From Saccoglossus kowalevskii (lineage: Eukaryota; Hemichordata; Enteropneusta; Harrimaniidae): 23,276 bases of DNA. The DNA lies in contig NW_003133353.1 in the NCBI RefSeq assembly GCF_000003605.2, positions 161,681-184,956 of the forward strand, given 5' to 3'. The first letter of the stretch is position 1. Every line of letters begins with the position of its first letter. A model generated the notes under the pieces. It saw only the letters and a program-made list of their open reading frames with translations. It made no database searches and was not told where the DNA came from. The translations under genes and the position numbers were made by a program. Of this stretch, positions 4,670-23,276 are shown piece after piece.

Positions 4670-5190
4670 GTCACAACTCTGTCCTGACATTCTGTCCACA
4701 GTGGCGCTTGACAGTAGGTCGTCACAACTATGCACTGGCATTATGTTGTCACAACTATGTGCTGACATTATGCTGTCGCAACTATGTGCTGGCATTACGT
4801 TGTCACAACTATGTGCTGACATTATGCTGTCGCAACTATGTGCTCGCATTACGTTGTCACAACTATGTGCTGCCATTATCCTGTCACAGCTATGTGCTGG
4901 CATTACGTTGTCACAACTATGTGCTGGCATTACGTTGTCGCAACTATGTGCTGGCATTACGTTGTCACAACTATGTGCTGGCATTAGATCGTCACAACTA
5001 TGTACTGGCATTACGTTGTCACAACTATGTGCTGGCATTAGATCGTCACAACTATGTGCTGGCAGTACGTTGTCACAACTATGTGCTGCCATTATCCTGT
5101 CACAACTATGTGCTGACATTATGTTGTCACAACTATGTGCTACCATTATGTTGTCGCAACTATGTGCTGACATTACGTTATTACAACGGT
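4670..5190. repeat. 27-bp minisatellite, about 19 copies
   Basis: The unit TGTCACAACTATGTGCTGGC plus ATTACGT is 27 bp, nine codons, and contains no stop in two + frames and one - frame. This produces three long repetitive open frames over the same bases (nine-residue motifs such as SQLCAGITL on +). Several frames open at once is the signature of a stop-free repeat, not of a gene. The copies at the left edge are degenerate. It lies about 0.9 kb upstream of exon 1a. Confidence 0.97.
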
Positions 5191-6100
5191 AAGACTGATC
5201 AATGTGGATAGGCTTCAACACACTGAAGTGTGAGATGTGTCGTTTTATACTAAAGACGATAACTTTTTCCATGCTGGTTACTGAGTATAAAATAGAATAG
5301 TGATATTTACATTGTTGTTAAATTGTAGTGCAACCATAAGATAATACTGCTATTCGTATGGATACACTTACGACGCGTAAGAGTAATGAAGTAAGAAGAC
5401 GGTGTCACGGGTCACGGATCAGTAGACCATTTGTACTTTTCCACTCTCATGTAGGCGTTCATCGGTAGTTTAATTTATTGTCTTTGGCGTTGGTTACATA
5501 CACAAATAGATGACTGTGGCGTCGATTGTGACGCCAGATAGAAATGAAATGGCGCGACTATAATATCATCATGATGATGAAGTCACAGCGTTATATGTTG
5601 AGTTTTGGTTCTGTTCGTAAACATTTCGGTATTCAACGTTCCCAAATACTGGAATGGCATTACAACTGACTCGGTCATAGTATAATTTCCCCCACGTGAT
5701 CAGATACGAAGGTGACAGACATCGGTGGATACAGACAGCAGCCGTTCTTTGTATAGATGTACAAATTGATATAGCATAATCACGCTGTCAATACGTATAA
5801 TAATATCTATATGCACCTGATGTCTATCTATCACATGAATTCTTGTAATTCTGTAATATTAATCAATATGTAAAATTATGAATGAGTCAATGTGATTGGC
5901 TGAACCGGCATGATACGATGACAAGTTAACGGTGAAAATTCACACATCTAACATTCAACACAGTAAAAGCCATTCAGTAACTACTTGTAAGTCTGTCCAT
6001 ATTATATTAATGGTGCCAGTCAAGCAGATGTCTTTGTAATTATATTATTTTTTTCGTTGATTCTATTTGGCAGAGTCGACACAGTACACAAACTACTAAG
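5191..6100 (+). other. Upstream flank of exon 1a
   Basis: About 900 bp with no gene. Promoter elements for exon 1a should lie here or further upstream. I see a weak TATATTAT at 6041 and a pyrimidine-rich tract ending in CAG at 6073, but no strong TATA/initiator pair like those at 8588 and 12375. Confidence 0.4.
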
Positions 6101-6179
6101 ATGGGAGTTATGTCACATGTATATTGTTTCATATCAACGTTCATTGCTGTATTTATAGCTAATTCCACGTTAACACAAG
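6101..6179 (+). CDS. fst: Follistatin exon 1a: signal peptide
   Basis: The ATG has a strong start context (A at -3, G at +4) and opens 26 codons with a hydrophobic core (VYCFISTFIAVFIA) typical of an ER signal peptide. The exon ends CAA G followed by donor GTAGGT, so it is phase 1. Spliced to exon 2, the split codon becomes GCT and gives Thr-Gln-Ala-Gly-Val-Cys-Trp. This recreates the Gln-Ala-Gly that precedes Cys-Trp in vertebrate follistatin, with a good -3/-1 cleavage site (Thr, Ala). A pyrimidine-rich tract ending in CAG at 6073 could be an acceptor for an upstream non-coding exon. Alternatively, TATATTAT at 6041 could be a weak TATA box with transcription starting near 6072. One of two well-supported alternative first exons. 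Confidence 0.72.
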
Positions 6180-9100
6180 GTAGGTTGAAACCAAACGTTC
6201 ATCTCATCCATATTTTGTTAACACATTGGTATATTCATAAATTCTGGTGCTCCTGGTGTGCACAGTGTCAACAACATGATAATAATAACGTACATATTCA
6301 CGATTGTTCACTTCGCGTAACACCATAGGTTAATTAAGGTAAATAGTCCCGATTGTTCACTTCGCGTAATACCATAGGTTAATTAAGGTAAATAGTCCCG
6401 ATTGTTCACTTCGCGTAACACCATAGGTTAATTAAGGTAAATAGTCCCGATTGTTCACATAACGTATGACTATATGTTAATTAACACAAAGAGTCTCGAT
6501 TGTTCACTCGGTGTCACGGTATACACTAATTAGTCGACATCTGAACTAATGTAAATTTCAGCGATACTCTACCCTTGAGTAACTTTGTTTTTACTTGCCC
6601 GCCGTAAACACGTGATTTGCGTTTGCGCGAAGTTTACATTACACGGGCTAATGACAAAGGTGGGACAAAGCCTGAATTTAGTCTGGAATGGGCTCGGTGA
6701 CTTAGAGGTGTTAACAGAAATCAATTTTGCCGGTTATACAGCAGACGTATAGAATGACATACACTTTTACTATTCCATCATCGCTGCCCGTAATAATATT
6801 TGTATATGGAAATCCCGTCGGGTATTCTCTGACAGTCATAAAATAGATCTATCACCGAGTAACCGGGCCCCACAATCGTTTCGCGGTGTGTTCGAATTTC
6901 ATGTAAACAAACAGTTTAGCTTTACACACCCGGTGGCCGAGCGGAAGACGTGTCGTGGCGTGAAGCAAGTCGATTTGTTGTCATACGCGAGCGTCGAGTC
7001 GAGCCACGCACGCATAGCATGTTTCTTTTATTTAACATAGTATTTACCGCGCCATGTATTCGGTGTTATTTCCAATTTTACTCTTGGCGCAACAAAGCCA
7101 TTCTTTTTATCTTTATGAATATTTGATTTTAATGGCAGTCCAATCAAGCCACTCAAGCATAGTGCGCATCAACGTCATTTGAAAACTGTCCAACGTTGTT
7201 CAGTCGGCCAATAGAAACCTCTCGTTTCATTTTGTGAAACTGATAAATACATATCGCATTGAACCATACCGAACACGACACAGCGCGCGACGTCTGAATC
7301 TTTTTAAGCATGTTGAAGTATGTCCTCAGTCGACATTGTATCTATAAATTCATAGCTACAGTCCTGAACGCATGGACCTGGTTCCAACTCACCGGGGTTC
7401 CGAAAACAGGCGGCTATTGTTTGCTATATATCTGAATATATATAGTAGCGCCCTCATCGATGTTATTCATTTATAATAATTCAAGTTACGCATGCAGAAC
7501 TGTACATGAGTGAAATAGGGGGGGTGAGAATTGTCTTTCACTATTTTTTACTCTTTCGTATTTTTCAAACCATGAAATAACGAACCAAAATTACCATGTG
7601 CTATTAAATGAGTAAACATCATAATTAGTTGATCAAATAGCTAAACAGGTGAGCGATTTCAAGACCATACACCACATTGGTATCCGTTGTTTAGTACGCA
7701 TTAAATATCCGTTAAAATGAATGAAAATGGCACAATGCAGAACATCACAGTAAAACAACACTGAACACTATTATTATGTCGAAATAAATACAAAGCAGAA
7801 AGAAAAAAAAATCAAGACAATCGAACGTCATGAATATTCAGGAGGCGACGCTTTCTAAATTCCAAATAGACTTTGCGATATTAGCCCCGATATTGGTATG
7901 TCTTGCTGAATATAAGATCATGTCGCCACAAAGCTAAAATGATAAATCACGTGCACATAAAATATTATACATTTGGGAAAATGAACATACCCATGATCTG
8001 ACTGCATTCACTTGATTATCTAGTTCAATCGGTAGAAGTTCAGTGACCAAATAACAGAGCAATTACGTGTAGTTACGTTACTTCCTTCCAACTACCCTGA
8101 GACAATGATATTGTTTTGATACCATCTTTCTTGATCAATCGACTACGTTCTCATTTGCTCCGTCAAAATTGTTACTTTATTATTGATTTAATAATCAAAG
8201 AGTCATACCAAGTACATTGAACTAAAATACCCATATAAACAGTTCAACTGATTGACCTGGAAATGGAATAGTTGTGTTTATCAAAACTATTACTAGTAAT
8301 TTCCATTGCCAAAGGGGTGTTGACAAGTAGAGCATTATGGTCGTTGAACTAAAACTGACCGAACTACTTCAAAAAAATTGGCTCATATATGAACATAATT
8401 TGGAAATTTGCCAATTATTCCAGTCAAAACACATACAAGAAATTCTTAACCAAAACTCGTAGAGAAGTGTTCTCAAGAACAACATAACAGTGTGTAATTC
8501 TGGGAACGACCAATCTATCGAGCATGTGTCAGCTGGTCACACAGTGTGTCCGCGTCTCGTAACCTCAGTGTGTCGTATCGTGCGAACTATAAAGCGACAC
8601 GGTCGCTGCGCCCTGATCAGTGACATCCGAATGTATACAAATGCGCGTAATTATAAAATGACATGTAAACTTATACTAATATGTTCGTCCTTATTTCTGA
8701 GTGTGTATGGTCGTTATAGCTTTTGGCATGAGTCCAAGACGTGTGTACAGCTAGCACGGGTACTTTACTATTTCTACGTCTTGTGTTTCTTTATCGCACG
8801 TTCACAATTTAAATAAATATCACTCAGACATTATCAATATGAACTTGAACTACGCGTTAAACCAATATTATGTTACGTAACAACAATTAATTTAGGTTAA
8901 AATATGTTGATACATATGATATGACCGTATCCTATCGAACATGAATAGCAAATAATATTCAATTTTGCTCACATTGCCTCTTTACATGGTCAAAATGCTT
9001 TGTGAAAATTAAGAAAATTCCATCCCAACTACCCAGAATACCCTGCATCGAGTAAACTCCGTTCACTGCTAGTAGTTCTTTCCCTCCTTTTCTCGGAGTA

Positions 9101-12100
9101 CCCCCCCCCCCGCACACACATACACAGTTGTCCTTGTCGAGCCCACAATTTTCCTGGTGACGGGCGGACACATTTACCATTTTGCCACACAGCAGGCATT
9201 ATACAACCATAATAAATATAACGGGCATTATACAACCATAATAAATATAACGGGCATTATACAACCATAATAAATATAACGGGCATTATACAACCATAAT
9301 AAATATAACGGGCATTATACCAGAATAGATACAACGGGCATTATACAACCATAATAAATATAACGGACATTATACCAGAATAGATATAACGGGCATTATA
9401 CAACCATAATAAATATAACGGGCATTATACAACCATAATAAATATAACGGGCATTATACAACCATAATAGATATAACGGGCATTATACAATCAGAATAGA
9501 TATAAAGGGCATTATACAACCAGAATAGATATAATGGACATTATAAAACCAGAATAGATACAACGGGCATTATGCAATCAAAATAGATATAACGGGCATT
9601 ATACAACCATAATAAATATAACGGGCATTATACCAGAATAGATACAACGGGCATTATACAACCATAATAAATATAACGGGCATTATACCAGAATAGATAT
9701 AACGGGCAGTATACAACCATAATAAATATAACGGGCATTATACAACCATAATAAATATAACGGGCATTATACCAGAATAGATATAACGGGCATTATACAA
9801 CCATAATAAATATAACGGGCATTATACCAGAATAGATATAACGGGCAGTATACAACCATAATAAATATAATGGGCATTATACAACCATAATAAATATAAC
9901 GGACATTATACCAGAATAGATATAACGGGCAATATACAACCAGAATAGATATAACGGGCATTATACCAGAATAGATATAACGGGTATTATACCAGAATAG
10001 ATATAACGGACATTATACATCCAGAATAGGTATAACGGGTATTATACAACCAGAATAAATATAACGGGCATTATACCAGAAAAGATATAACGGGNNNNNN
10101 NNNNNNNNNNNNNNNNNNNNNNNNNNNNNNNNNNNNNNNNNNNNCAACCATAATAAATATAACGGGCATTATACCAGAATAGATATAACGGGCAGTATAC
10201 AACCATAATAAATATAATGGGCATTATACAACCATAATAAATATAACGGACATTATACCAGAATAGATATAACGGGCAATATACAACCAGAATAGATATA
10301 ACGGGCATTATACCAGAATAGATATAACGGGTATTATACCAGAATAGATATAACGGACATTATACATCCAGAATAGGTATAACGGGTATTATACAACCAG
10401 AATAAATATAACGGGCATTATACCAGAAAAGATATAACGGGCATTATACAACCAGAATAGATATAACGGGCATTATACCAGAATAGATATAACGGGTATT
10501 ATACAACCATAATAAATATAACGGGCATTATACCAGAATAGATATAATGGGCATTATACAACCAGAATAGATATAAAGACATTATACAACCAGAATAGAT
10601 ATATAAAGGGCATTATACAATCAGAATAGATATAAAGGGCATTATACAACCAGAATAGATGTAAAGGGCATTATACAATCAGAATAGGTATAAAGACATT
10701 ATACAACCAGAATAGATATAAAGGGCATTATACAATCAGAATAGATATAAAGGGCATTATACAACCAGAATAGATATAAAGACATTATACAACCAGAATA
10801 GATATAAAGGGCATTATACAATCAGAATAAATATAAAAGGCATTATACAACCAGAATAGATATAATGGGCATTATAAAACCAGAATAGATACAACGGGCA
10901 TTATACAATCAAAATAGATATAACGGGCATTATACAATCAGAATATATATAATGGGCATTATACAACCAGAATAGATATAAAGGGCATTATACAACCATA
11001 ATAGATATAACGGGCATTATACAATCAGAATAGATATAAAGGGCATTATACAACCAGAATAGATATAATGGACATTATAAAACCAGAATAGATACAACGG
11101 GCATCATACAATCAAAATAGGTATAACGGGCATTATACAATCAGAATAGATATAAAGGGCATTATACAACCAGAATAGATATAAATGGCATTATACAACC
11201 AGAATAGATCTAATGGGCACTATAAAACCAGAATAGATACAACGGGCATTATACAATCAAAATAGATATAACGGGCATTATACAATCAGAATAGATATAA
11301 TGGGCATTATACAACCAGAATAGATATAAAGGGCATTATACAACCATAATAGATATAATGGGCATTATAGAACCAGAATAGATACAACGGGCATTATACA
11401 ATCAAAATAGATATAACGGGCATTATACAATCAGAATAGATATAATGGGCATTATACAATCAGAATAGATATATAAGGCATTATACAACCAGAATAGATA
11501 TAATGGGCATTATAAAACCAGAATAGATACAACGGGCATTATACAATCAAAAAAGATATAACGGGCATTATACAATCAGAATAGATATAATGGGCATTAT
11601 ACAACCAGAATAGATATAAAGGGCATTATACAACCATAATAGATATAACGGGCATTATACAATCAGAATAGATATAAGGGGCATTATACAACCAGAATAG
11701 ATATAATGGACATTATAAAACCAGAATAGATACAACGGGCATTATGCAATCAAAATAGATATAACGGGCATTATACAATCAGAATAGATATAAAGGGCAT
11801 TATACAACCAGAATAGATATAAAGGGCATTATACAACCAGAATAGATCTAATGGGCACTATAAAACCAGAATAGATACAACGGGCATTATACAATCAAAA
11901 TAGATATAACGGGCATTATACAATCAGAATAGATATAACGGGAATTATACAACCGGAGTAGATATTGACCATTAAGATATTCTCATGTACGGTTTGTTGT
12001 CGTTGAATTTAAAACGTATTGAGTTCGTGCCAAGTGAAGGTCACATACGATTCAATTTGTGTTCACATCCGTTCCGTTATCGGGGAAATCCCTGGCGTGA

Positions 12101-15100
12101 CGAAGGCCGTTTTATTATTTATTTACACAAAAATGTTCGCCTGATACACGTTGGTAACGGAAATAATTTTAAACATACTCTGCCTTCGGGGTCCTAGTGC
12201 GTCATTCAATTCCCGGTAGCTTTGAAAGAGTTGTAGAATTCCGGTGCACGCCACCCGTGGTCGCAATCATTTCGGGGTAAGACGATCGGCAATGTTTGTG
12301 TTAAGTCCACTTTTGGGGGATATTGATTTTCCTATCATAGCACACGTTGACAGTGCCATTAATCAACTCATATCTATAAAAGGGCGCATTGGACGTCTCG
12401 CCTCATTCTACGTACGCATATACAAAGGCATATGTTCGCGTTTGACTCCAAATAGATATCGATTTATTGTAGCGTACCAGTACATTGTTACATTGATCAC
12501 TCACAGATAATGTATACCGTGTTACGCACTCTGTTCTTGTTTTCGGTGAGAATCACGATTGTTCAAGGTATGTTGTGTATTTCGCTAAACTTATTTATTA
12601 CTACGTTATATGCGACTAAAGATTCCTAAAATATCGATATTTACACACACATCAATGTGAAGTATATCGATGAAATAAGTACTGAACTGGTGCCGTGAAA
12701 AACCTCGTTTTTGATAGTTTTTAGTAGAAATGTTGCCTCGTCGTTTGCGTATTATAACATAAGTGTGCCATTGCTCGGTATTACATGCGTTGCTAATATC
12801 TCGAATAAGTCACGTGTTTAGAATTACGATTCGACGCCTTTGACAGATGCGTTTGTCAATCAATAGCCGACAAATCTGCTTACGCGTCTTAGTTATTCTC
12901 GATGAAAACACACTCTACTCTATTTAGTTTAAAAAAAACGGCATCATTCATATCGAAGTTTCATTATGTCGAGGTTTGGGCAAATATAGAATACAAATTG
13001 GTAGAGGGGTATTATTTTATTTTTTCGGGAAAATATCCCGTCTACTGACCTTTTGAAACATTTTCTATCATTTGTATGTATGGTAAGTAAAGCCCCTCAT
13101 ATCTCATATTGATTCGTAGTGTGCAACATTTATATATGTGACAATATACTACTGTTATTGTGTTCTATGAAAACTGTCCATATAAAATATATGTTTGTAC
13201 TAAACGAATTTTGTTCATTGTTGACTGCTACCCGAATACAAGGTACATTAAATATCGTCTACCTTAAGCGTCATATGTAGTACGCGTTCAAACTTCCTGT
13301 AAACACAATTCATACATGCGTTGAATACTTCGCATGTGACCTATATTGAATACAACGTAGCTCGTCAATTGTTAGTTGTGATACGGTGCTACAGAGGCAA
13401 TGTGAATATAATTTACGTTATATTTATTTTATAATACATTTTTATGAAAAAACCCACAATCTATCGTAAAATAAAATAACGTTTTGTCTGCAAACATAGC
13501 AGAAGTCGCTCGATAAAATACTGTTTTATTATCTGTACATAGTTTATCAGCATTTTCTCAAACGAATGACTACTGCAAAGTTTATATTTTATATTCTAAT
13601 GTTTGTATCAAGATGCAATATCGAAAAACAATTATTTCAACATGCTCAAATAAGTTGAACCGCATCTGACTGCAGTTGATTGTTTTTATTTTGAGAATTG
13701 TGGAGTTACACAAGATTAGATATCGGACTGGGTTTATAAACGCTTTGTGCGATATATAGCCTGATGACTTGGTGAGAGTTTATCTGTCGTCTCACCAGTC
13801 GACTGAGACAAATGAAAACAGATTTATGTGTATCGGAAGTATTCCATAGTTATGTATTTTGTAGGTCATTAGTCTAGGCAGGGAGTCGATTAAAGCATCT
13901 TAGTTTAGTCTGATTGTGACGAATGAGATATGTGGCGGGCGTCGCGTCGTCTTAGGCGAGACTGTGGTTACGTCAATGTTTCACTAAAATGACGCGAGTA
14001 ACTGAAACTTGGGCAATCTGAAGATTCAAGGTCACCGTAGATATTACAGTGTATTGCTGTAAAATACGTTAATCTGAAGTTCAATTATTGAAATAAGACA
14101 AGTGAACATGGTTAACCACTATTACAATTTACCAACGGTTTGTCATTTTTTCATTGGAATAAGTGATTCTGATTTAAAATTTAAGCATCAGAACTATTTC
14201 TATATATATATTGCATATATTTTACGTTTTACTAAAATTAGTTGATTATTCGCATAAATAAACAATGTGGTATTCTCAATGTAATGTATCAGCTTCTGTG
14301 GCGGTAAACATCACAAGTATTAGTGCGTATATTGTCAATAGTTTGAATTCAGTTTTCTTGGCAGTTCAAAGAGGGGGATATCGATACGGTACTCCACCAA
14401 TGTGTACTTTTTTGAAAACAACACCGTCTACAAACATCGATCTGTTTGGTGGCATAATCTTGAAATAACTTTGAAGTGTTTGTAGATAACTACCTGAAAC
14501 AAACTCCAACATGACCTCTTAATTCTAATTTCGTCTCACTAACTTAACACGTGCGAGGCGTAACCCACTTGACTTAAATATTCGTGGCATTCAAAACAAT
14601 TTAAATTGTATCTCTTTTTGTAACCTGGATGTGCAGTCGCTTCAAACACTCCGCATAACTTTATTTTCTTACCACAACGCGAGTAAACTGAACGCTGTGA
14701 GAACTATTGGCCACACTTGCCCTGTATGTTTCCCAAGGATGGTCGTCACATTCCACGTCAATGTATTACATTACATAGCCCGCTGAAATAGTACAACTTT
14801 AGTTACCGGCCACACACGTAAACATCGCTATTTTTAAAACGCGTTAGACCTTATTCGACTAATACAGTTACTAGATTTAACCATAGACCCTCTAACAGAG
14901 GGTCTATGATTTAACCGGCTTCAACTTACATTCAACAAATTCAATCGGCCGTTTATTTCTTATACAAGATATGTGATACGTTTTGGTCATGTAATATTTT
15001 ATTGTATGAGTTATGTGGTGAATGTGGTTCAAATAGTGTTGCCATCTACAATAAAGAAACAAAATATTAAAAAATTGAACTTGAATGAAAAGACATGTGT

Positions 15101-18100
15101 CTTCACAAGCATGATGATATTGGTAGTCACCAAAAACCTGAAAATGTATTTTTTTGAGAAACAAGTGCTCACTATAATAAAATAAAAATAAAATGGTTGT
15201 ATTTTGCGTGATGTAAATAGGTGAAAAGAACACTTTCGCAAATGTGGGAGAGTGACTGCAAAATCATCGATAACATCACAATTTCTCAACCAGTCGAGTG
15301 CTTTCATCTATGATGGGGTAACCGTTGTTCTTTTTTTATGAGAACACATGTGTAAATGGCAGATCGAGAGACAGAGTTGGAGTTGCTTGTTGTCATGGTG
15401 ACAGTTTCTATGTTGCCTCACGCGTTGCTCTAATTTATCATTAGCTGGGGTATGTTGGTCGCACATAACCGAAGATGGACGATGTGACGGTCTTGTCAGC
15501 GCCAAAATGACGAAAAAAGACTGTTGTGCGTCAGGGGCACTGAGAATGGCTTGGTCTGCGGATGACGTTTCCTTCGGCACGCTGTTTAAATGGAAAGTGG
15601 CAAAGACTGGTCCTCTAAGCTGCATCCTCTGCCAAGGTGAGTTGGCAGTTGGTAAGTAGTCGGATGATAGAGAGTTTAGTAACCATAGTAACCATGTCAG
15701 GTTTTCCATGACTCGCAGTCGTGATTTTACTTCTACTGCTTTTTATATACATTTTAGACTGTTTTGAATGTTCACAAATTGGCCGTTGTATTTTTTGTTT
15801 GCACGTAGTTTAAATCGAATACTACATAGGCACGTTAGGATTTATGAATTATATAAAATGGTGACATCAGTATTTGCATGTTTTTTAATACATCTGACAC
15901 GCATCTAACATTGGCTACATCTTTCATAGCTTCGTCGTGATTGGTTATTTATAAATGTTATATCAACATTTCATTGGTTCGTATTGATTATCGTATACAT
16001 AGTGCATCTGCCGCGCTTTGCCATGGCACCAGACCGCGACGACGATAGAATAGTGTTCTATTTAACGCGGAAGAGTCTTAATGCGCGAGAATTAAGTCCT
16101 AAGTGGCGATAACAACGGACGGTAAAACAGTAACAACTAATGGGTAGGAGATTGTTTGTAAACAACGTTACGCTATGGCTATCTGCCGCATGCACAGGTG
16201 TTGACTCCGCCGCTTTAACACTGGTCTGATATACGTGCCTGCTATGGTCATTACTTCAACGTCAAAGTAAATAACAGTTACATTTGAAAGAGAATACACT
16301 GGAGAATAATCAAGAATAACTTCAGTTTTATCAAAATCCTCTTACTTTCTAGTAATGTCAGCATGTAGCGTAGTACGTCTCCTCATTATGATACAAGTCT
16401 TCATATATTTTGGTGTGACAATGATTCTGGACTGATTGGTTCTTTTTCCCATTGCAGACAGCTGTGAGCATGCGCAATGTGGGCGAGATAGGCGATGTAA
16501 AATGAACAGAAAAAACAAACCGCGATGTGTATGTTCCCTAAAGTGTTCTCGAGACGAGCGTCGTGGGGCCATCTGTGGCACTGATAGTCGTACATACGCA
16601 AATAAGTGTGCAATGAGAAAATACCGCTGTAAGCAAAGACGCGACATCGAAGTAGCGTATCACGGAGAGTGCCAAAGTAAGTCAATCAATGTTTCCAAAA
16701 TTATGGGAGAAAAAGAAATTCAAGACTGACAAAAATATAATGTACAACGAAATAATTATCAATAACCAAAACAAAATAAAAACTTAAGGATAAGATAATT
16801 CAGCACTTAATTGTGCCTTTTTTCTGATAAGGAACATGGCTTGTCGGCTTGACTTGGCTTGACGAATAAAATACACGTAATTTGTAAGACGACAAGTGTC
16901 GGAAACAATAGTCCAACAGTGTGGTTGGTCCACATTCCACGTTAATGTAATGTTATTTATATCTTTATTACAGCGACATGCAACGGCGTTGTGTGTCCCG
17001 GAAACTTAAGTTGTATCGTTGACCAGCATAACCGACCCCACTGCGTGTCGTGTCAAACGGAATGCCCATCGCCTGCTCCGTATGACATGTTATGCGGTCT
17101 CGATGGTGTCACGTACGAGAGCTCCTGTCAATTAATGGCGGCCACGTGTTTATTGGGAAGTAGCATAGGTGTTGCATATAGTGGGCGATGTAGAGGTAGG
17201 TATTGACAACTATGCTGCATATCAACTATTACCAGGTACAGGGAATATGATCTTCCTAAAGTAAACAATTAGCGATACGTAGAGTGTCGGCGCACATACA
17301 TCCCGCTCCCATTCGCAGGATCCTCAGGCAACTCAACAGTGACACCCACACCTGCCTGATTCACAGAAGCCTAACTAGAACTCGCACTACACCCTACCAT
17401 TCAACACCCTTGACCTCACTGATCCATGCACTGATTAACTGATATGGATTGTTTTGCATTCTATTGTAGGCCCCCAATCTTGTGACAAGTTTAGTTGCAT
17501 ACAGGGTAAGAAATGTCTTGTCACGGCGGATTCGGGGATACCGCAGTGTGTTACATGTAACCAGACAGACTGCAACAAAGAGACAGACCCAGACGGAGTG
17601 GTTGATAATCGAATTTGCGGATCTGATAATCAAACCTATCAAAGTTGCTGCGAAATGAGAAAATCATCTTGCAATAAGGGCATTTCTATAGAGATCAAGC
17701 ATTTTGGACAATGTGAAAGTGAGTATAATAGCGTCCTCTACGGCACTGAAAAAGTCTGATGTTTCGTATTGTTTTTTATTCGCCGCATATATGTCGCATA
17801 CATAATTAAATAGTTTGAATTAGACCATTTTTCAATTTCACTCACGTATACGTTTTAGTAAATTGAATATACTTTATACATTCGATCCAAACTTAACGTT
17901 CCGGTTAAATTCTATGCGTGTGTTTGTCATGTTTGTTTCGAGTCCTCGATTTTTTTATTTGGCCGTGTGATCATGAACTGTCTTAACTCCTTGTATTTCA
18001 AGGTGTTATGAATATCAGAATATGCAAATGTTCTTTGCCTATCTGTAGGACAAATCAAGCGAACCAGGCGAATTAGCCTGCCATTACAGCACGTAGGCCA

Positions 18101-18939: not shown

Positions 18940-20630
18940 TTTGATATATATATGTTTTATCCATTTTTTTTAAACTTAATTTATTGTTCTTTTCTTTTCA
19001 TTTGATTACTGACCAATTTGATAAGAGTTGTTGTCTGAAGCTGCTGTTCAGAATTGTGAATGAGTGCATAACTCATTTACTGAACTTGAACTCCGAAAAG
19101 TAACGGTGAATAAGACGTTTTTAATTGAGGCTGGCAGACGAGATGCTATTTGTAATTGAGTTGAGGTGTCCATCTCATAATGTTGAAAATTTTACAATAA
19201 CAATATCAGGTGTTGATATGAAACATACCATGCTGTTTCATATTCATAGTTTACATCTTTTATGTGTTAGTTATAATGATGCGTCATACAACGTTCCTAT
19301 TAGTTGCGCCCTCTAGTGACAAAGCGCTTGTAGCGCCGTTCACACTGACCACTTTCCCGGAAGTAGCGAGACTGGAGTGCTGAAATACGCCTGCTTTGTC
19401 ACGGCAGAAAACACAAACATGTAAGTTTATCGATTGTTGATAAAAGGGAGTCTTATTTATGTCGTATCTACTTCCTAACCACTCAGAGATTGAACTACAC
19501 ACAGACGTCATTTTGACGTCACAGAAGCGTTTCGTCACTTATTAAAAAGAAGATTTATGCCGGTTTCAAAATATTTATTAAAGGTTGTAAAACATTTCTT
19601 TTTAATATGTTATACCGGTAAAATGGTGTTTTATTTTAGAACAAATAATATATATATAGGAACTCTAATCACACATTTCAAATTAAGTAATTACCTTTGT
19701 TTTGTAATATGGTTACATTTCATTTGTGGTGAACATAAATTGCTACCATGCGCCATTAGAGAAAACACTTAACCTAGCAAAATAAACTGATAAAATGTGT
19801 AATATAATGGATTCTTGACCTCAACTAGTATACGTAGAGGAACCGTGAATTCATAATGTGAAGGTTGTTGATGACGTTGCCATAACTGCACTAATGATAC
19901 CGCGTAAAGGCGCAGTCGTGAGATAGTTCTAGTAACAAGGTTAGAGGTGTTTTTTTATTTATATTTATATTATATATATTATTGAACATCATAATAACAT
20001 ATCGTGTAATATTCTTTATATTGTATTTTGTACTTTTATATTAATAAAAAAATACTGATCACTTGGTATATATGTAGCTATCTACTATGAAGAACTCAAT
20101 CCAATTTTCTTGGTTTATTTTTCCCATGGTGGTCTGTGCTCGTCCAGCAGCAGGAAAAATATGGCCCATCAGTGAAACAACATAGAATACATTTGACCAA
20201 CTTCCCAGCACACTCATCGTTATGAATCTAGTAGACGGGGGAATGGTTGGAAGCACGTGTTAGTGCCGTGTAATGTTCCGGTACTCTGTGATTAGTCTTT
20301 ATTACTGCAATCTAGTAATAACATCTTTTACAGTTAATTCGATAATTTGATAGCGAAATTTTCAAGCCATCATTTCGCAATTATGTGACCAATTTTGACA
20401 AACTCACTTTTTCACTTATTTAGATTTTGTAAAATAAAAACTTGTCATCCTGACTGGATCCAATCTTCTCTTAATGTTTCATCAGGCTTAATTATTTATT
20501 GGGTTAAATATCACTTTTTGGCTGACAACTAAATGTGCTAAAATTAAATACAAGTGAACATTCAAATTTAACAATACAATATATTGTTTCCTTTACAAAC
20601 CAGTGAAGTAAAAATCATGTGACGATCTTT
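18940..20630 (+). other. 3' untranslated region and downstream flank
   Basis: No further gene recognised. The first canonical AATAAA after the stop is at 19781-19786, giving a possible 3' UTR near 860 nt; another is at 20043-20048. A full cAMP-response-type palindrome TGACGTCA (19514-19521) follows a GACGTCA (19504-19510). The stretch 19300-19530 is less AT-rich and begins with GCGCCCTCTAGTG, a motif often seen in dispersed repeats. Short open frames here appear random. Confidence 0.6.
19781..19786 (+). promoter_or_regulatory. Candidate poly(A) signal for follistatin
   Basis: First canonical AATAAA downstream of the follistatin stop, about 840 nt away, followed by a short TGTGT. Placement is plausible but unproven. 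Confidence 0.4.
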
Positions 20631-22190
20631 ACAACATCAAACCCTTTGAAATGAAACACTGTGCCTATCCTTGCAACATCAAACCCTTTGAAATTAAACA
20701 CTGTGCCTATCCTTGCAGCATCAAACTCTTTGAAATTAAACACTGTGCCCATCCTTGCAACATCAAACCCTTTGAAATGAAACACTGTGCCTATCCTTGC
20801 AACATCAAACCCTTTGAAATTAAACACTGTGCCTATCCTTGCAACATCAAACTCTTTGAAATTAAACAATGTGCCTATCCTTGCTTTTTTTGCAACATCA
20901 AACCCTTTGAAACGAAACACTGTGCCCATCCTTGCAACATCAAACCCTTTGAAATGAAACACTGTGCCTATCCTTGCAACATCAAACCCTTTGAAATTAA
21001 ACACTGTGCCTATCCTTGCAACATCAATCCCTTTGAAATGAAACACTGTGCCTATCCTTGCAACATCAAACCCTTTGAAATTAAACATTGTGCCTATCCT
21101 TGCAACATCAAACCCTTTGAAATTAAACACTGTGCCTATCCTTGCAACATCAAACCCTTAAATTAAACATTGTGCCTATCCTTGCAACATCAAACCCTTT
21201 GAAATTAAACACTGTGCCCATCCTTGCAACATCAAACCCTTTGAAATGAAACACTATGCCTATCCTTGCAACATCAAACCCTTTGAAATTAAACACTGTG
21301 CCTATCCTTGCAACGTCAAACTCTTTGAAATTAAACACTGTGCCTATCCTTGCAACATCAAACCCTTTGAAATTAAACACTGTGCCTATCCTTGCAACAT
21401 CAAACCCTTTGAAATGAAACACTGTGCCCATCCTTGCAACATCAAACCCTTTGAAATTAAACAATGTGCCTATCCTTGCTTTTTTTGCAACATCAAACCC
21501 TTTGAAATGAAACACTGTGCCCATCCTTGCAACATCAATCCCTTTGAAATGAAACACTGTGCCTATCCTTGCAACATCAAACCCTTTGAAATTAAACATT
21601 GTGCCTATCCTTGCAACATCAAACCCTTTGAAATTAAACACTGTGCCTATCCTTGCAACATCAAACCCTTTGAAATTAAACACTGTGCCTATCCTTGCAA
21701 CATCAAACCCTTTAAAATGAAACACTGTGCCTATCCTTGCAACATCAAACCCTTTGAAATTAAACATTGTGCCTATCCTTGCAACATCAAACCCTTTGAA
21801 ATGAAACACTATGCCTATCCTTGTAACATCAAACCCTTTGAAATTAAACATTGTGCCTATCCTTGCAACATCAAACCCTTTGAAATGAAACACTATGCTT
21901 ATCCTTGCAACATCAAACCCTTTAAAATGAAACACTGTGCCTATCCTTGCAACATCAAACCCTTTGAAATTAAACACTATGCCTATCCTTGCAACATCAA
22001 ACCCTTTGAAATGAAACACTATGCTTATCCTTGCAACATCAAACCCTTTGAAATTAAACACTGTGCCTATCCTTGCAACATCAAACCCTTTAAAATGAAA
22101 CACTGTGCCTATCCTTGCAACATCAAACCCTTTGAAATTAAACATTGTGTCTATCCTTGCAACATCAAACTCTTTAAAATGAAACACTGT
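20631..22190. repeat. 42-bp minisatellite, about 37 copies
   Basis: The unit begins CATCAAACCCTTTGAAAT and ends CTATCCTTGCAA. It is 42 bp (14 codons) and free of stops in a + and a - frame, so long repetitive open frames result on both strands. Units differ mainly by ATT/ATG, CAC/CAT and GAA/AAA changes. Two 51-bp units carry an extra CTTTTTTTG (near 20884 and 21479), 595 bp apart, marking an internal duplication of about 14 units. A 2-bp loss near 21158 breaks the open frames on both strands, which argues against a coding role. Confidence 0.97.
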
Positions 22191-22549
22191 GAATATGTCT
22201 ACGAAATATCCTTCCCACAATATACTTACAGTCTGATTGTTGTGTTCTCAGAAAGTTGCCGAAGAGGGAGCATTATTTTCGAAGTGCTTTAGAAACATCT
22301 CCCGTGTACTATAATTTTTATAAACAGTATACAGCAGTTTAAGTCTGTCTTGCAAACGTCCCATGCTGATTTTGAATGAGAAAGTGAAACACAAAATAAC
22401 GCAATGAATTCATGTTATCTGAAAGATAAAAAATCGGAGTTCAGAAAAATAACACTCGAGAATAGAAATCGTGTTTTTATTTTAAAAAAAACGTAAAATA
22501 TAATTTGGAATTACGGGAAAGTTTATAAAGAACTCAGTGACTGCTTGTA
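22191..22549. other. AT-rich spacer, no gene seen
   Basis: About 360 bp between the 42-bp and 20-bp arrays. Nothing is recognised here. Confidence 0.6.
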
Positions 22550-23276
22550 GTAGTAAATACAAGTTAGTTACAGTATGTACAAGTTAGATACAATATATGT
22601 ATCATTTAATTACTTTATATATCAGTCACTTGTCACAATATGTACTAGTTGATTACAGTATGTACCAGTTAGTTACAGTATATATCAGTTAGTTACCGTA
22701 TGTATCATTGAATTACCTCATGTATCAGTCACTAGTCACAATATGTACTAGTTTAATACAGTATGTACTAGTTGGTTACAGTATATATCAGTTAGGTAGA
22801 GTATATATCAGTTAGGTACAGTATGTATCAGTTAGAGACAGTATGTATCAGTCACTAGTCACAATATGTACTAGTTGATTACAGTATGTACCAGTTAGTT
22901 ACAGTATGTATCATTTAGGTACAGTATGTATCAGTTAGGTACAGTATATATCAGTTAGGTACAGTATGTATCGGTTGGGTACAGTATGTATCAGTCACTA
23001 GTCACAATATGTACTAGTTGAATACAGTATGTACCAGTTAGTTACAGTATATATCAGTTACTTACCGTATGTATCAGTTAGGTACAGTATATATCAGTTA
23101 GGTACAGTATGTATCAGTTAGAAACAGTATGTATCAGTCACTAGTCACAATATGTACTAGTTGATTACAGTATGTACCAGTTAGTTACAGTATGTATCAG
23201 TTAGGTACAGTATATATCAGTTAGGTACAGTATGTATCAGTCACTAGTCACAATATGTACTAGTTTAATACAGTAT
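22550..23276. repeat. 20-bp minisatellite with 23-bp spacer units, runs off the window
   Basis: The unit is TACAGTATGTATCAGTTAGG (20 bp) with AT/GT variants. A distinct segment CAGTCACTAGTCACAATATG recurs at 22623 (degenerate first copy), 22726, 22849, 22992, 23135 and 23238. Intervals of 103, 123, 143, 143 and 103 bp equal five, six or seven 20-bp units plus 3 bp, a higher-order structure. The array is truncated by the window end. Confidence 0.95.

Follow-up and report, generated by a model that had tools for sequence, protein, structure and literature searches.

Can one follistatin gene be entered through more than one coding first exon, each supplying its own signal peptide for the same mature protein? 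The question is raised by a locus of the hemichordate Saccoglossus kowalevskii, analysed here as a window of 23,276 nucleotides (nt), the whole stretch G000:C2510:161681-184956 within a 572-Mb assembly. The window carries a six-exon follistatin gene on its + strand, and three candidate first coding exons, 1a, 1b and 1c, lie upstream of exon 2 (Table 1). As gene anatomy, 1a and 1b are well supported: both are leader exons compatible with splicing to exon 2, and the mature protein expected from either is the same. The reading we favour goes further and gives the gene two alternative promoters and two coding first exons, 1a and 1b, that lead to a single mature protein; it is held with a confidence that stops slightly short of even.

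Candidate Leader Exons 1a and 1b

Exons 1a (79 nt) and 1b (58 nt) both start with ATG and are open throughout. They finish with CAA G in phase 1, as had been claimed in the original prediction. Joined to exon 2 at 15445, either one rebuilds the same Gln-Ala-Gly-Val-Cys-Trp junction, again as predicted, with an Ala codon made of the last leader base and the CT of exon 2. Both donors deserve their earlier description as good. Scored with a generic position matrix over the 1461 GT sites of the + strand of the window, the 1a donor (AAG/gtaggt, 6.06 bits) ranked 4 and the 1b donor (AAG/gtatgt, 4.88 bits) ranked 8, which places both among the donors of the gene itself, those of exons 2, 3, 4 and 5 being at ranks 2, 20, 5 and 19.

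The mature chains of follistatin in the PDB, 2p6a_D and 2b0u_C (which we take to be the human protein), begin at the Gly that corresponds to the residue following the junction Ala, and the mature protein is therefore expected to be identical from 1a and 1b. Signal cleavage at Ala/Gly was judged by a home-made model, not a trained predictor.

Exons 1a and 1b were described as unrelated, and no mutual similarity of the three leader regions was seen above shuffles. A common origin was rejected, the local-alignment scores being matched or beaten in 185, 91 and 131 of 200 shuffles. An origin as repeats was likewise rejected, with 1a, 1b and 1c each single-copy in a genome search whose repeat counts are lower bounds, N-masked stretches lying outside it. 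The possibility that 1b is an internal exon downstream of 1a was rejected, as the acceptor-like site at 12507 gives a 61-nt exon that breaks the frame of exon 2.

A possible 87-nt intron in the 5' untranslated region (5'UTR) ends 27 bases ahead of the 1a ATG. Its donor scores 2.58 bits (rank 39 of 1461). With 3.16 bits its acceptor takes rank 33 of 1099 and falls among the gene's real acceptors, which span 0.18-6.87. Counted from the TCAKT at 5974, both upstream ATGs of 1a (6010 and 6028) fall within this putative intron.

Putative Promoter Elements

Separate promoters for the leaders had been proposed, and this part of the original prediction fared unevenly. It is supported for 1b by a TATA box and initiator at canonical spacing. 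A comparable pair hints at a promoter for 1c as well, and 1a is without a TATA box. The TATA/initiator pairs at 1b and 1c are new beyond that prediction. The initiator A at 12405 lies 105 nt ahead of the 1b ATG, and on the + strand of the window the 1b TATA box is the sole occurrence of TATAAAAG outside 9180-11960. At 1c, the initiator A at 8619 lies 12 nt before the first ATG and 39 nt before the second.

Strict pairs, defined as TATAAA followed by TCAKT at 28-33, numbered nine on both strands (four +, five -) of 139,201 readable bases, about 278 kb of strand, and those of 1b and 1c are two of the nine. When the upstream DNA was shuffled 400 times, with the large tandem array excluded, 8 of the shuffles contained at least two strict pairs. 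When the leaders behind the nine pairs were compared (ATG within 250 nt, donors above -8 listed), only 1b had a donor above 1 bit (4.9; the next, 0.6), and it also had the highest sum of donor and leader scores. A looser TATA motif with TCAKT at 28-34 gave 26 pairs, several of them within arrays. The promoter pairs are possibly not fully independent of how the candidate exons were chosen.

Signal-Peptide Strength and Chance Expectation

Signal-peptide scores were highest for 1c (10.6), followed by 1a (8.2) and 1b (5.7). On the + strand upstream of exon 2 there are 34 phase-1 leaders with a donor of at least -2, and the best sums of the two scores are those of 1a (14.2) and 1b (10.6), the third being 5.3. 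The background for chance expectation was the readable part of the same contig, 139,201 bases per strand, half of the contig reading N. A donor of at least 4.8 combined with a signal-peptide score of at least 5.6 was matched three times in 259,402 strand-bases, which corresponds to 0.18 expected in the upstream 15.4 kb, where two are seen; two matches were also reached in 2 of 60 first-order Markov shuffles. These thresholds were chosen post hoc and equal 1b's own scores, so this comparison favours the candidates.

At the level of 1a (donor at least 6, leader at least 8, a threshold set at 1a itself) there were no background sites in the 259,402 strand-bases, and 1a was the sole survivor of a strict hydrophobicity scan of both window strands with a donor of at least 4. 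When the model was made to cleave at the junction Ala, the sums were 10.4 for 1a and 6.8 for 1b. Taken alone, donor and signal-peptide scores are at best modestly above chance.

Candidate Exon 1c

The third leader had been described as giving an Ala-Gly junction with a weak donor, which was found: joined to exon 2, 1c reads Ser-Val-Tyr-Ala/Gly, and its donor (ATG/gtcgtt) scores -3.67 bits. Its role as a working first exon was not confirmed. An alternative donor at 8700 scores -1.74 bits (rank 285 of 1461), and among the 18 GT sites scored between 8646 and 8799 none is both strong and in phase 1. It is unlikely that 1c, with its present donor, functions as a leader. A second good signal peptide starts within 1c at Met 8658, MTCKLILICSSLFLSVY.

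The interval 8588-8817 could also be a tiny separate gene: its TATA box and initiator are followed by a frame of 52 codons that opens at 8658 with a signal peptide and stops at 8814, and an AATAAA lies at 8812.

Gene Anatomy and Identity

The predicted protein has the composition of a follistatin. Its N-terminal domain matched Pfam FST_N (1.9e-15, 57.2 bits against a 27-bit cut-off) and is followed by three follistatin domains, Kazal_2 and Kazal_1 being recognised in three stretches apiece, while the EGF-like FOLN part fell slightly under its cut-off (20.1 vs 21.1 bits). The acidic tail characteristic of follistatin is present in exon 6, which encodes 112 residues, with 23 D/E against 6 K/R. 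The closest solved relative is PDB follistatin 2p6a_D (E 1.2e-83, query residues 28-322), the match to follistatin-like 3 being weaker (4e-43). Judging from homology, the protein would bind and neutralise activin-type ligands.

This is the sole follistatin gene found in this genome. Across the 572 Mb, FST_N gave one match among seven candidates scored, at exon 2 of this gene, and the DNA of exon 2 occurs once; a duplicate follistatin gene was ruled out at these sensitivities. Searches for RNA families within the window returned no matches, and no protein relatives were found in genome_contigs or viral_contigs.

Reading through the exon 5 donor (17718-17759) adds SEYNSVLYGTEKV, with a stop at 17757. 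If intron 5 were retained, the product would be a shorter protein lacking the acidic tail, which recalls vertebrate FST317.

Table 1. Features of the follistatin locus, in window positions
Feature	Position	Strand	Basis
Possible 87-nt 5'UTR intron ahead of 1a, donor CTT/gtaagt, acceptor tttggcag	5987..6073	+	Splice scores
Candidate first coding exon 1a, MGVMSHVYCFISTFIAVFIANSTLTQ plus base 1 of the Ala codon	6101..6179	+	Phase-1 open leader, donor rank 4/1461
TATA box of candidate 1c promoter	8588..8594	+	Initiator TCAGTGA, A at 8619, spacing 31
Candidate exon 1c, probably non-functional as a coding exon	8631..8709	+	Donor rank 534/1461
TATA box of 1b promoter, TATAAAAGG	12375..12383	+	Initiator TCATTCT, A at 12405, spacing 30
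Predicted 5'UTR of 1b transcript, one upstream ATG at 12432	12405..12509	+	Inferred from TATA/initiator spacing
Candidate first coding exon 1b, MYTVLRTLFLFSVRITIVQ plus base 1 of the Ala codon	12510..12567	+	Donor rank 8/1461, promoter pair
Exon 2, shared, N-terminal domain (FST_N)	15445..15636	+	Pfam, junctions
Exon 3, follistatin/Kazal domain no. 1	16458..16676	+	Pfam, PDB alignment
Exon 4, follistatin/Kazal domain no. 2	16974..17195	+	Pfam, PDB alignment
Exon 5, follistatin/Kazal domain no. 3	17470..17718	+	Pfam, PDB alignment
Exon 6, acidic C-terminal tail plus stop codon	18599..18939	+	Residue composition

Repeats and Other Loci

A 29-bp tandem array of about 97 copies (9195-11965) separates 1a and 1c from 1b, and contains a 50-N assembly gap at 10095-10144, which leaves it uncertain how long intron 1 would be behind 1a. 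Other tandem arrays near the gene lie at 1-408 (25 bp), 4721-5187 (27 bp), 6286-6508 (49 bp), 20618-22191 (42 bp) and 22558-23276 (20-143 bp).

Elsewhere on the same contig, C2510:112384-124832 and 7252-7722 hold open frames that, on inspection by eye, appear to resemble a sodium or calcium channel and a NEIL-type DNA glycosylase. On a mitochondrial contig (C4830, L027:1-4341), cox1 is on the strand opposite to both nad1 and cox2; in its cox1 and nad1, judged by conserved positions, TGA specifies Trp and AAA is best read as Lys, which does not fit the echinoderm code.

Discussion

The two-promoter reading would work as follows. Transcripts from the TATA/initiator promoter near 12405 would begin with exon 1b, while a TATA-less upstream promoter would produce transcripts with exon 1a, perhaps after removal of the small 5'UTR intron. 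Either leader would splice in phase 1 onto the same exon 2, and with the pre-cleavage Ala assembled across the splice junction, signal peptidase would cut both precursors down to one and the same mature ligand-binding protein, which starts with Gly-Val-Cys-Trp. We infer, on this reading, that the leaders are transcribed and spliced, serve as signal peptides, and are differentially regulated; they would differ in the time and place of their transcription, and possibly in the entry of the precursor into the secretory pathway. Use in different tissues and with differing secretion efficiency, as suggested in the original prediction, might follow.

Several points weigh against two working leaders. 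The splice, promoter and signal-peptide models were all built for this analysis from generic parameters and frequencies. The minus strand of the same upstream stretch holds 45 comparable leaders, and the two highest of its top sums (18.5, 13.2 and 9.6) exceed that of 1a (18.5 vs 14.2) and that of 1b (13.2 vs 10.6). The summed score shows no excess over background, with 1.7 sites expected and two seen at 10.6 or above, and 0.6 expected and one seen at 14.2 or above. The strict hydrophobicity scan missed 1b, which has a short, weak hydrophobic core and an Arg at -7, and with cleavage forced at the Ala several background sites on both strands outscored it. No TATA box was found in the 800 bases ahead of 1a. 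Lastly, the follistatin gene plan described in PMC10887188 has a single first exon, so that 1a or 1b could be a decoy.

Use of only one of the two exons, with both versions summed, is given a considerable, if minority, probability. In the first version, 1b is the one real first exon, driven by its TATA box and initiator, and 1a, with its good donor, is an open frame that arose by chance. Only at 1b does a core promoter of canonical spacing precede a leader that ends in a strong donor, and sums like that of 1a (at least 14.2) are expected by chance 0.6 times per 15.4 kb; however, no background site equals 1a in both donor and leader at the threshold set there, and 1a has the stronger signal peptide of the two with an equal fit at the junction. 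This version is somewhat unlikely. The converse, with 1a as the real first exon and 1b a leader that arose by chance close to a TATA-like element, draws on the better donor and leader of 1a and the borderline signal peptide of 1b. Against it stand the TATA/initiator pair of spacing 30, just 105 nt ahead of 1b, and a 1b donor that ranks 8 of 1461, and we consider it unlikely.

A role for 1c would add a third promoter, 1c being a former or rare first exon with a decayed donor, or a transcript start that splices elsewhere. What speaks for this is the pair at 8588/8619, directly before the highest-scoring signal peptide of the three leaders. Against this, the donor ranks only 534 of 1461 and none of the in-phase donors after 1c is stronger, the other in-phase donors being at 8700 (-1.74) and, within the leader itself, at 8646 (-1.7) and 8664 (-0.28). 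The TATA/initiator pairs could also be due to chance, at least two strict pairs having arisen in 8 of the 400 shuffles. A third promoter in this general sense is rather improbable, and its fuller form, with three promoters each providing its own signal peptide for an identical mature ligand trap and the use of 1c low, conditional or being lost, is quite improbable. It is very improbable that the true first exon lies upstream of the window and that 1a, 1b and 1c are all unused, since within 9.3 kb of exon 2 there are two leaders whose donors look real and which produce the exact junction, even though the adjoining upstream 30 kb (C2510:131681-161680) reads all N and the three candidates score well below the human leader.

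The favoured reading, of two promoters and two leaders, can be set beside known genes. Vertebrate FST has six exons, with the signal peptide (29 residues removed) encoded by exon 1, the N-terminal domain by exon 2, the follistatin domains by exons 3-5, and the C-terminal part from exon 6 (PMC10887188). The hemichordate gene shares this exon plan and is predicted to have the same Gly as mature start. In vertebrate FST, however, the described isoforms vary at the 3' end (FST344/FST317). Among the open-licence papers listed, titles and abstract openings gave no report of a follistatin with alternative exons for the signal peptide; where follistatin occurs together with alternative first exons or transcription starts in PMC12023386, PMC2830928 and PMC10768475, these terms concern other genes or follistatin-like 3 transcripts. 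For the brachiopod Lingula, PMC13121700 reports negligible follistatin expression in the stages studied and is silent on first exons.

A closer parallel in organisation is provided by the mouse IgLON genes Lsamp, Ntm and Opcml, in which 1a and 1b promoters are associated with first exons encoding alternative signal peptides, and the processed N-termini are identical (PMC5288359). As in those genes, more than one leader here can be joined in a common phase to a single exon 2 (phase 1 for 1a and 1b). Unlike follistatin, the IgLON proteins are neural adhesion proteins with glycosylphosphatidylinositol (GPI) anchors, from an unrelated family, and the use of both of their promoters was measured on transcripts. 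Swapping signal peptides between promoters is thus already known in IgLON genes and is not new in general, and because promoter and leader swapping is known from other genes, its presence in follistatin would be of limited surprise.

Follistatin keeps activin-type growth signals in check, and how much of it is present matters. If the three-promoter reading were true, the dose of follistatin would depend on which promoter is chosen and how strong its leader is, and not on gene duplicates. If the two-promoter reading is true, there would be a regulatory layer at the 5' end of follistatin, beside the known 3' isoforms, with the mature protein held fixed.

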